The notes under the pieces: model-generated
The model's database searches: none
Told to the model about the DNA's origin: nothing
The model's input: only the letters and a program-made list of their open reading frames with translations
From: an uncultured SAR86 cluster bacterium
GTDB lineage: Bacteria; Pseudomonadota; Gammaproteobacteria; Magnimaribacterales; AG-339-G14
Direction of reading: 5' to 3'
Assembly: GCA_902614235.1 (NCBI GenBank)
Contig: CACMKG010000001.1
Location: 404,916 to 468,915 of the forward strand
Length of the DNA: 64,000 nucleotides
Made by a program: the position numbers and the translations under genes
Shown: piece by piece, positions 60,417 through 63,923 of the stretch
Position numbering within the stretch: the first letter of the stretch is position 1
Layout: each line of letters opens with the position of its first letter

Positions 60417-60442
60417 TGTTTTATTTTAGCTTAAATAAAAAA

Positions 60443-60461
60443 CGGCACCACAGGGATGCCG
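60443..60461 (-). terminator. Intrinsic terminator downstream of TonB-dependent receptor
   Basis: - strand GCGGCATCCCTGTGGTGCCGTTTTTT: 7-bp stem (one G-U), 5-nt loop, U-tract; follows stop at 60481. Confidence 0.75.
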
Positions 60462-60480
60462 CTTTTTAATATGATATTTA

Positions 60481-62970
60481 TTAAAATTCAGTGGAAAGTT
60501 GAAGACCCAATCTTCTTCCTTCACCTAAACTATATCTATTACCTCCACCTTGATTTCTAGCTCCGGCTAGAGCAACCATCATATAATCGTCATCCGTACA
60601 ATTGTTACAGTAGGCTGAAATATTCCAACCACTTGGCAAATCCAAACCAACATTCAAATTAACTAGAGTTAGATCTTTCACAACTGTTGGATACCATTCA
60701 TCTAAACTAAGTTTGTATTCATCTTTATATGAAATACTTAAAGAAGATGTAAGTTCTCCTATATTTAAATACTGAGTATTTTCGATTGCGACATTAATAT
60801 TGTTGTCGGCAGCAAATGGCATTTTGCTATCTGCTCTATCTATACCTGTAACTGACGCAGCTGTATCCAAAAATCTATCGTATTCTGCATCAATACCAGC
60901 ATAACCTAGAACTAAATTAGTATTATCATTAAGAAAAGTTCTATAGTTTAATTCTATGCCTTGAACAGTAGCATCTGCATTTAAAACAACACCTGCGGGC
61001 TGACCGTTAGCATCGGTTCCAACAAGAATTTGTTGATGGTCGGTGTAGTCATAAGAATAAACAATTGCTTCTAATTGAGAAGAACCCCCGTCTAAAACTG
61101 CTTTATAGCCTATTTCTATCATTTCAAGCTCCTCAGGACTATAAGGCTTGTATGCATTGGTGGCATTCCATTGAGCGAAGCCAGGGCCACCTGATTTGGT
61201 TGCAGTTGAATAAGTTGCCCAAGCTAAAGCATTATCATAAGTCTTCTCTAAAGTTATTTTAGGATCAAACTCTTTTAAAGTCTGTCCATTGCTGACAGAA
61301 AATGGAGCCAATACTAAAGGAACTCCTAAAGCATCGGTGCCGCCAATATAATTAAAAGGTTTATCATGAATAGAATAACGTCCTCCAACAAACAGAGATA
61401 AATCATCACGAAGTGGAATGGTTACATTTCCAAATATCGCAGATGCTTGAGTTTTTATTTCCATTCTTGCGGTATTATTTAAATAACCAGAAACACTTTT
61501 TTGAAAGTTAGCTAGATCAAGAGCATCTATATTAACTCTTAGATTTGCAGGTGCTGGTAAAGCAGATCTTGGAACTGCTGGAGTTCCTGCTGCAGGGTTT
61601 GGGGGCGCTCCAATAGCTGCACAGTTTGCACTAGCCACACAAGCTACTAATGCAGCTTCAATTTGTGCATCAGTATGTGTTCCCGCTGGGTTTAAACCAC
61701 TACCTAAGATTGAAAGATTTCTCACTAAAGTATCAGAAAAGAAACTATCAGGACCAAGTGCAAAGGTATCTTCTCTAAAACCGTGATCACGCATAGCATA
61801 AAATCCAACTGACCAAGGATATTTGGCTGAATCAAAAGAGTCTAGTCTTAGCTCGATAGATGTAGTATCGGTTTTAGCAGTATGTCTTTGGACCACTGCA
61901 TCAAGAGCAATTGAATCAAAGTCCCTTTCCTCTCCAGAATTAACTTGAGAAACTCCAAGAATAGTCGTTAGTTTGTGTTCGTTAATATAAGATTCAGTTC
62001 CAAGAGTAAAAAGAATTGACTCTGCATAATTGTATCCAGGCCTATTTAATTCTTGAGAATATTCGCTTGCTACTGCTTTTTGGTAAACAGGATTAGCAGT
62101 ATTAACAACTCCTGTAGAAAACAAATCTGCAGAATTATTTTGTGTGGTGCAAAAAACTCCGTTTGTTGTTGATCTTGCAACAATCAAAACATCCATTGTA
62201 GGATTTGTCGAATTACAAAGAAATCTTTGTTCTGAAATCACAGCATATTGATTAATCTTAGAGTGGGATAAGGAAGTATTCCAAACTACATCATTATTTT
62301 CTCCAAAAAGTGAAAATCTAGACGCAATAGAATGTACTCCGTCATCTCTTCCAGTAGCCTCATCAAAGGACATACCATCTTCACTGCCTCTTGAAAGCGC
62401 AATTCTAGCTGAAGTAGTTTCATCTATATCGGTATCGATTCGAAGAGAGACATCATTCTGGCCATTGTTACCACCTTTAACAGTGAATTTTCCAGAATCT
62501 CCTCCTTCAGGTCTTTTAGTGACAATATTTATAATTCCACCTAGTGAGTTAACTCCATAGATAGCGCCTTGAGGACCTTTTAAGACTTCGATCCTTTCAA
62601 TATCCATCAAGCCATGAAGATAAGAAGCGACTCTAGGTTGAGCTACGCCATCTATCACTATAGAAGAAGATGGATCTGCACCAACATCAAATTGATAAGT
62701 ACCTATTCCTCTTATTCTAAGATTAACCCTAGATTTTCCTTCCCCAGCAAAAACCATATCAGGTGCTATATGTCTAAGACCTTCGATATTATTGATACCT
62801 TTTTTAAAAAGGTCATTACCAGAAACAGCATTAATTGCGGCTGCTGTATCCATTAAAGTAGATTCTTTTTTTGTTGCTGTTACCGTCAAATCTTCATAAA
62901 CAGCCTGTGCTGAAGCTGCTAACGAAAAAAATAGAGATGTAACAAGCGCGATGCTTTTGAATTTATTCAT
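60481..62970 (-). CDS. TonB-dependent receptor
   Basis: Signal peptide, YEDLTVTATKKESTLMDTAAAINAVSG TonB-box/plug start, IERIEVLKGPQGAIYGVNSLGGIINIVTKRP, C-terminal aromatic. Confidence 0.95.
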   Translation of the reverse strand: MNKFKSIALVTSLFFSLAASAQAVYEDLTVTATKKESTLMDTAAAINAVSGNDLFKKGINNIEGLRHIAPDMVFAGEGKSRVNLRIRGIGTYQFDVGADPSSSIVIDGVAQPRVASYLHGLMDIERIEVLKGPQGAIYGVNSLGGIINIVTKRPEGGDSGKFTVKGGNNGQNDVSLRIDTDIDETTSARIALSRGSEDGMSFDEATGRDDGVHSIASRFSLFGENNDVVWNTSLSHSKINQYAVISEQRFLCNSTNPTMDVLIVARSTTNGVFCTTQNNSADLFSTGVVNTANPVYQKAVASEYSQELNRPGYNYAESILFTLGTESYINEHKLTTILGVSQVNSGEERDFDSIALDAVVQRHTAKTDTTSIELRLDSFDSAKYPWSVGFYAMRDHGFREDTFALGPDSFFSDTLVRNLSILGSGLNPAGTHTDAQIEAALVACVASANCAAIGAPPNPAAGTPAVPRSALPAPANLRVNIDALDLANFQKSVSGYLNNTARMEIKTQASAIFGNVTIPLRDDLSLFVGGRYSIHDKPFNYIGGTDALGVPLVLAPFSVSNGQTLKEFDPKITLEKTYDNALAWATYSTATKSGGPGFAQWNATNAYKPYSPEELEMIEIGYKAVLDGGSSQLEAIVYSYDYTDHQQILVGTDANGQPAGVVLNADATVQGIELNYRTFLNDNTNLVLGYAGIDAEYDRFLDTAASVTGIDRADSKMPFAADNNINVAIENTQYLNIGELTSSLSISYKDEYKLSLDEWYPTVVKDLTLVNLNVGLDLPSGWNISAYCNNCTDDDYMMVALAGARNQGGGNRYSLGEGRRLGLQLSTEF

Positions 62971-63055
62971 ATCCTCCCCCTTGAAAGATAAATAATTTTA
63001 ATTAGTTGTGTCTAAATTTTACACAACTTAAAGACAAAATGGACATTATTAAATA

Positions 63056-63074
63056 ATGTGACAGAATGTCACAT
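63056..63074. promoter_or_regulatory. Candidate operator, perfect 8-3-8 palindrome
   Basis: ATGTGACA-GAA-TGTCACAT in the TonB receptor/SDR divergent intergenic region. Confidence 0.6.
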
Positions 63075-63123
63075 ATTAGGTTACGGAGTTATAGCCTAAA
63101 TGTAAACTAATAATATCGATACA

Positions 63124-63897
63124 ATGGACTTAGGAATATCAGGTAAAAAGGCAATCATATGTGCTTCAAGCAGAGGCTTAGGAAAAGCTTGTGCAGAAAG
63201 TCTTGCCTCAGAAGGAGTAGAAATTTTTATAAATGGTATTCAAAAAGAAAATTTAACAAATACTGAAAAAGAATTTAAAGATAAAGGATTTGAAGTAACT
63301 GCAATATTAGGAGCAATGGAAGATGCTTCAACCAGGGAAGCTCTTTTGAAGGCATGTCCTGAACCGGATATTTTAATTAATAACAGTGGTGGCCCTCCTC
63401 CTGGAAATTTTTTTGATTGGAGTGAAGATGATTTTTTAAGTGCAATAAAATCAAACTTTACGCAATCTGCCCTTCTAATGCAGGCTGTGATTCCTGGAAT
63501 GATAGAAAGGAAATTTGGTCGAATAGTAAACATAACTTCTGCAATGGTTAAAAATCCTCATCTAATAATGGGTTTATCCACTTCCGCACGATCGGCTTTG
63601 CATGGGCTCTCCAAAGCATTATCTAAAGATGTGGCCGAATATGTCACTATTAATAGCCTTTTGCCCGAAAGAATTGATACGGATCGACAAACTAGAATTA
63701 TAAATTTTCAGGCTGAATTAGCAGGCATTACTTACGAGGAAGCAAGAAAAAATGTTGAAGAAGGTTTGGCTGCTAAACGAATGGGAACAGTAGAAGAATT
63801 TTCTGGTATTTGTACTTTTCTTTGCTCAAAACAAGCTGCATTTGTAAATGGTCAAAGCATAACAGTCGATGGTGGAACTGCGCCAGGTTTGCTATGA
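63124..63897 (+). CDS. SDR family oxidoreductase
   Basis: MDLGISGKKAIICASSRGLGKACAESLASEG; NNSGGPPPGNFFDW; ARSALHGLSKALSKDVA. Confidence 0.92.
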   Translation: MDLGISGKKAIICASSRGLGKACAESLASEGVEIFINGIQKENLTNTEKEFKDKGFEVTAILGAMEDASTREALLKACPEPDILINNSGGPPPGNFFDWSEDDFLSAIKSNFTQSALLMQAVIPGMIERKFGRIVNITSAMVKNPHLIMGLSTSARSALHGLSKALSKDVAEYVTINSLLPERIDTDRQTRIINFQAELAGITYEEARKNVEEGLAAKRMGTVEEFSGICTFLCSKQAAFVNGQSITVDGGTAPGLL

Positions 63898-63904
63898 TTT
63901 TTTA

Positions 63905-63923
63905 AAGTGACAAAGTGTCACTT
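63905..63923. promoter_or_regulatory. Candidate operator, perfect 8-3-8 palindrome
   Basis: AAGTGACA-AAG-TGTCACTT between SDR stop and GST start; same core as 63056..63074. Confidence 0.6.

Follow-up and report, generated by a model that had tools for sequence, protein, structure and literature searches.

Two copies of the same palindrome lie at the starts of neighbouring genes in an uncultured SAR86 bacterium, and the question is which regulator, if any, reads them and to what end. Bacteria of the SAR86 cluster are among the most abundant in the ocean and have strongly reduced genomes; to our knowledge, little is known about how their genes are regulated. The window, that is, the whole stretch of 64,000 nucleotides that was analysed, comes from a genome of 1.09 Mb that is 90% complete (G000, the home genome). 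The first-pass annotation of the window had reported two perfect palindromes with the core GTGACA-N3-TGTCAC, and placed them among genes for a TonB-dependent outer-membrane receptor (TBDR), a short-chain dehydrogenase/reductase (SDR), a glutathione S-transferase (GST) and a TetR-family protein. Both the palindromes, O1 (ATGTGACAGAATGTCACAT) and O2 (AAGTGACAAAGTGTCACTT), and the gene context are present exactly as described (Table 1).

Table 1. Features of the home locus (window coordinates) and similar palindromes in other loci (locus:position)
Feature	Position	Strand	Remarks
Cytochrome P450	58437..59804	-	Directly 3' of TetR; Pfam p450
TetR-family regulator, 202 aa	59808..60416	-	Proposed repressor binding O1 and O2; Pfam TetR_N
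Intrinsic-terminator-like hairpin	60438..60467	-	CGGCA...TGCCG and T run; between TBDR stop and TetR start
TonB-dependent outer-membrane receptor (TBDR)	60481..62970	-	Proposed target of O1; Pfam Plug and TonB_dep_Rec_b-barrel
Operator O1 (predicted)	63056..63074	.	ATGTGACA-GAA-TGTCACAT; TBDR/SDR divergent intergenic region
Short-chain dehydrogenase/reductase (SDR)	63124..63897	+	Between both predicted operators; Pfam adh_short
Operator O2 (predicted)	63905..63923	.	AAGTGACA-AAG-TGTCACTT; between SDR stop and GST start
GST gene start, 266 aa	63942..64000	+	Runs past window end; L004:6858-7658; Pfam GST_N/GST_C
Proteorhodopsin-promoter copies	L138:5602-5614 (G018), L147:5034-5046 (G022), L144:5110-5122 (G023)		Genomes without TetR
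Genus g10 AAGTGACAAAATGTCACTT-type sites	L103:7321, L104:8770, L105:14385, L106:8080, L108:8147		

The plus strand of the home locus carries, in order, SDR, GST, a VOC-family dioxygenase-like protein and a sulfatase. In relatives whose loci reach further, the GST operon is extended by a FAD-dependent hydroxylase, a fumarylacetoacetate-hydrolase-family protein (FAH) and a small membrane protein. GST is the first gene of this GST-VOC-sulfatase-FAD hydroxylase-FAH operon 3' of O2, which is seen in the loci L037, L038 and L101 and partly in L099.

Symmetry alone is not the signal, since the window contains six perfect 8-3-8 palindromes; the signal is the repeated core. A genome-wide scan, proposed in the first-pass annotation as a check against background frequency, finds the exact pattern GTGACANNNTGTCAC twice in the whole of G000, both times at this locus, against about 0.03 (0.033) occurrences expected from composition, and the reversed pattern, taken as a control, has one match across 40 genomes of the family. 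The one other near match in G000 has one mismatch and falls inside a folD-like coding sequence. With the relaxed pattern and up to one mismatch, the genome yields 21 sites versus 19 for the reversed control, hence only O1 and O2 stand out, and a genome-wide regulon in G000 is rejected. A literature search for the motif as written gave no match.

O1 lies 85 bases 5' of the TBDR start and 49 bases 5' of the SDR start, and SDR transcription likely starts from the O1 region; O2 sits within the 44-base gap between SDR and GST. Both palindromes overlap a -35-like GTGACA, at O1 reading toward TBDR with a 16-nt spacer and AATAAT, and at O2 reading toward GST with a 17-nt spacer and TAAATT, the evidence from the promoter consensus being weak in either case. 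G021 and G019 retain the block ATTAGGTTACGG (window 63074-63088), which adjoins O1 on the SDR side. Close to the start of TBDR there is another inverted repeat, AGTTGTGT...ACACAACT (~63003-63028), but neither G021 nor G019 has an intact copy, and hence it was dropped as an element.

Eight SAR86 genomes have a close TetR cluster, five from the home genus g1 and three from the distant family f3, and in every one of them the motif is found at the promoter of the TonB receptor, the GST operon or TetR. TBDR adjoins the operator in each of the five g1 loci. The G021 locus has the same pair of sites at the same 849-base spacing as G000. The G019 sites are GTGTGACAAAATGTCGCAG and AAGTGACATAATGTCACGT, and in G017 one finds TAGTGACAATATGTCATAT adjoining the TonB receptor, shifted toward it, and AAGTGATATTATGTCACTA before GST; thus O1 is conserved in G021 and G019, and O2 in these two genomes and G017. 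The P450 neighbours are 89-97% identical in G021, G019 and G020, and P450 was not found in the G017 locus.

The fifth genome of the genus, G020, is rearranged. Here the TonB receptor gene directly adjoins GST in divergent orientation, and each of the two starts has a site nearby, the GST-side one about 20 nt before GST. A second TonB receptor, TetR and P450 come next, so that TetR is 3' of both receptors. SDR is located on another contig and has no site. This arrangement indicates that the sites belong to a module of receptor, GST and TetR rather than to SDR, which is a variable passenger. Moreover, no site with zero or one mismatch is present in any of 20 related SAR86 SDR loci without TetR; the SDR contig of G020 is one of these, and most of the others belong to other genera and have the order VOC-SDR. 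Hence, to judge by the arrangement of the sites, the local regulon suggested by the first-pass annotation is best redrawn around two predicted units, the receptor and the GST-VOC-sulfatase-hydroxylase-FAH operon, rather than around SDR.

In the three f3 genomes (G166, G179, G181), TetR shows 31% identity and is divergent from a TonB receptor. Each cluster has three sites: an adjoining pair in the TetR/TBDR divergent promoter and a single one 5' of a FAH-GST-VOC operon. The exact TGACANNNTGTCA occurs six times in total in these genomes, each time at the TetR cluster. As the sites lie within the TetR gene's own promoter, the f3 TetR is probably autoregulated. The adjoining copies (L109:9051-9083 and L110:10013-10045) have their centres 14 bases apart, which suggests two dimers side by side.

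A motif built from genus g1 alone places the f3 sites first within stretches of about 19 kb each, and zero to three sites are equal or better in a 453-kb background from which loci chosen for carrying the motif were excluded; the best f3 site scores 19.6 bits, and none in the background is as good. In a fourth genome outside the training set, G162 (TetR 33% identical), the best site by the g1 motif lies where a FAH-VOC-TetR operon begins, scoring 13.2 bits, the next one 7.5. The G162 site is degenerate, and the G162 TetR has YHYF where the others have YKYF. The GST-TetR cluster is present in three of 19 genomes of the f3 genus. Since TetR and the sites travel as one island, their co-occurrence is not fully independent evidence, and the counts come down to about two independent clades and the one rearrangement. 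With this proviso, the conservation in orthologous promoters that the first-pass annotation had called for is seen in G021, G019 and G017, in rearranged form in G020, and again at the TetR-linked clusters of the distant family.

The TetR protein contains the N-terminal TetR helix-turn-helix (PF00440, above the cut-off), and its structure model (pLDDT 90.7) is all helices, as expected of the TetR fold with its ligand-binding C-terminal domain. All eight aligned TetRs, some of which are just 31% identical, share an unchanged recognition helix, LGYGTFYKYF, and the STED that comes after it. G000 encodes three TetR_N proteins, the helices of the other two being ITEAAIYRHF (SlmA-like) and QKNHSALHYHF. 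All genomes in which TetR orthologs were found have the motif, a search across 369 genomes of the class gave no further close homolog, and TetR was the one regulator recognised within the clusters examined. Thus the nearby TetR, named as a candidate in the first-pass annotation, gains in weight: the sites follow it, they are absent at the 20 SDR loci that lack it, and it is the sole recognised regulator.

The Foldseek matches of the model are TetR-family proteins, the first of them being RolR, the repressor of resorcinol catabolism in Corynebacterium glutamicum (PDB 3aqs/3aqt; PMC3086911). RolR is also the best match in the PDB (E 4e-6, TM about 0.7), with 17% identity in the structure alignment; phmmer aligns TetR with 3aqs over residues 10-60 only (E 7.8e-4). 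The two would be alike in the type of repressor and in that RolR targets aromatic catabolism genes, as the SAR86 neighbourhood suggests for TetR. However, RolR comes from an actinobacterial host, and TetR is not assigned to its subfamily.

We consider it very probable that O1 and O2 are operators of the local TetR, acting as a repressor that holds off TBDR (with SDR) and the GST operon until a ligand, probably aromatic, appears. A TetR dimer would occupy TGACA-N3-TGTCA and cover the -35-like sequences of the TBDR (probably also SDR) and GST-operon promoters, blocking RNA polymerase. Release from the DNA would come about through a small molecule that binds TetR, most likely an aromatic substrate or ring-cleavage intermediate brought in by TBDR, so that uptake and catabolism would be induced together. 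We infer the binding of TetR to the sites, repression rather than activation, and the class of the ligand. The neighbouring FAD hydroxylase, VOC dioxygenase-like, FAH and GST enzymes make an aromatic inducer the best guess, and the sulfatase may hint at a sulfated substrate.

Similar sequences occur at other promoters. In G018, G022 and G023, the relaxed TGACANNNTGTCA (TGACA-N3-TGTCA) stands about 85 bases 5' of a gene read as proteorhodopsin, at a conserved position (Table 1); G000 has a degenerate form of this site, and G019 and G021 have none. Relaxed palindromes also precede a carboxylase/decarboxylase-like gene (L140:5161 in G017, L142:5333 in G023) and a large TonB receptor (L141:5973 in G017, L143:5150 in G023). 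In genus g10, in genomes without TetR, palindromes of the AAGTGACAAAATGTCACTT type are neighbours of surface proteins that are very long and repetitive, and of a conserved outer-membrane-like protein, possibly reflecting an unrelated regulator with a similar site.

The copies before proteorhodopsin in G018, G022 and G023, and at two other promoters in G017 and G023, mean that another protein may read a similar sequence. One form of this idea is that TGACA-N3-TGTCA is read by two regulators within the genus, the island TetR at the aromatic cluster and a different protein at proteorhodopsin and a few promoters in the TetR-less sister genomes. We regard it as unlikely; if true, carriage of the TetR island goes with an absent proteorhodopsin site, as in G000, G019 and G021. 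Another form, which we hold to be distinctly improbable, is that a more global regulator encoded elsewhere binds all these sites, controlling proteorhodopsin and other genes, TetR being a mere neighbour. It would account for TGACANNNTGTCA before proteorhodopsin in genomes mostly lacking TetR, before the decarboxylase-like gene and the TBDR in G017 and G023, and before the giant surface proteins of g10. However, neither the home genome nor the three f3 genomes contain extra intergenic exact sites, G000, G019 and G021 have no intact site at proteorhodopsin, and the sites track the TetR cluster across rearrangements and in a second family.

Given that TetR binds the sites, it could also be an activator or a dual regulator, since some TetR-family proteins do activate, and the conserved block ATTAGGTTACGG beside O1 on the SDR side has no assigned role. 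However, RolR, which matches best in structure, represses its targets, and the overlap of the sites with -35-like hexamers favours occlusion over activation; we consider activation very unlikely. Still less can be said for the inverted repeats acting as RNA hairpins, either a terminator or an mRNA-stabilising stem: an 8-bp stem with a 3-nt loop could form, and O1 scores terminator-like on the minus strand, but a terminator would serve no purpose at O1, which is flanked by divergent genes. Furthermore, among 14 distinct sites TGACA/TGTCA is nearly fixed, and the outer pairs 1-19, 2-18 and 3-17 are unpaired in five, three and seven sites, respectively, so it is the sequence rather than the pairing that is conserved, as for protein binding, and the hairpin is rejected on this pattern of changes. 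Finally, a CRP site (TGTGA-N6-TCACA) is rejected, as the GTGA...TCAC half-sites are common to both but the spacing is N7 at O1 and O2, in agreement with the first-pass annotation, the core TGACA-N3-TGTCA is fixed, and the outer G/C is replaced in the G020 and f3 sites.

A local TetR repressor with palindromic operators is an already known type of system, and the assignment of this locus to it, as a new case in SAR86, is well supported, as far as genome comparison goes. A related combination is known from Sphingobium, where PheR represses an aromatic catabolic operon, and its deletion also raises TonB-dependent receptors (PMC13273656). The tie between an aromatic-operon repressor and such receptors would be shared; however, PheR belongs to a different family, IclR, and its binding motif is GCAACG. 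In SAR86 itself, catechol 2,3-dioxygenases, GSTs and arylsulfatases were reported order-wide, along with abundant TonB-dependent transporters (PMC11582366), and predicted counterparts of these are encoded here. A term search of that paper gave no words starting with "regulat".

The predicted operator, regulator and target set (TonB receptor, SDR, GST, the ring-cleavage-type VOC enzyme, sulfatase, FAD hydroxylase and FAH) make one SAR86 regulon directly testable, and the identity of the TetR ligand would also suggest the import substrate of the receptor. If TetR is indeed a repressor, the proteins for uptake and breakdown are made only when the food molecule, probably aromatic, is present.

As regards expression of TetR itself, the gene has no operator site at its own start in genus g1. 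The terminator-like hairpin between TBDR and TetR is also found in G021, G019, G017 and G020, thus TetR is probably not simply co-transcribed with TBDR. In the region 60417-60470 of the window, a -10-like TAAAAT box, kept in several relatives, is situated a few bases before the TetR ATG. Together with the conserved terminator, it indicates that TetR in genus g1 is probably expressed alone, and it may be transcribed as a leaderless mRNA.
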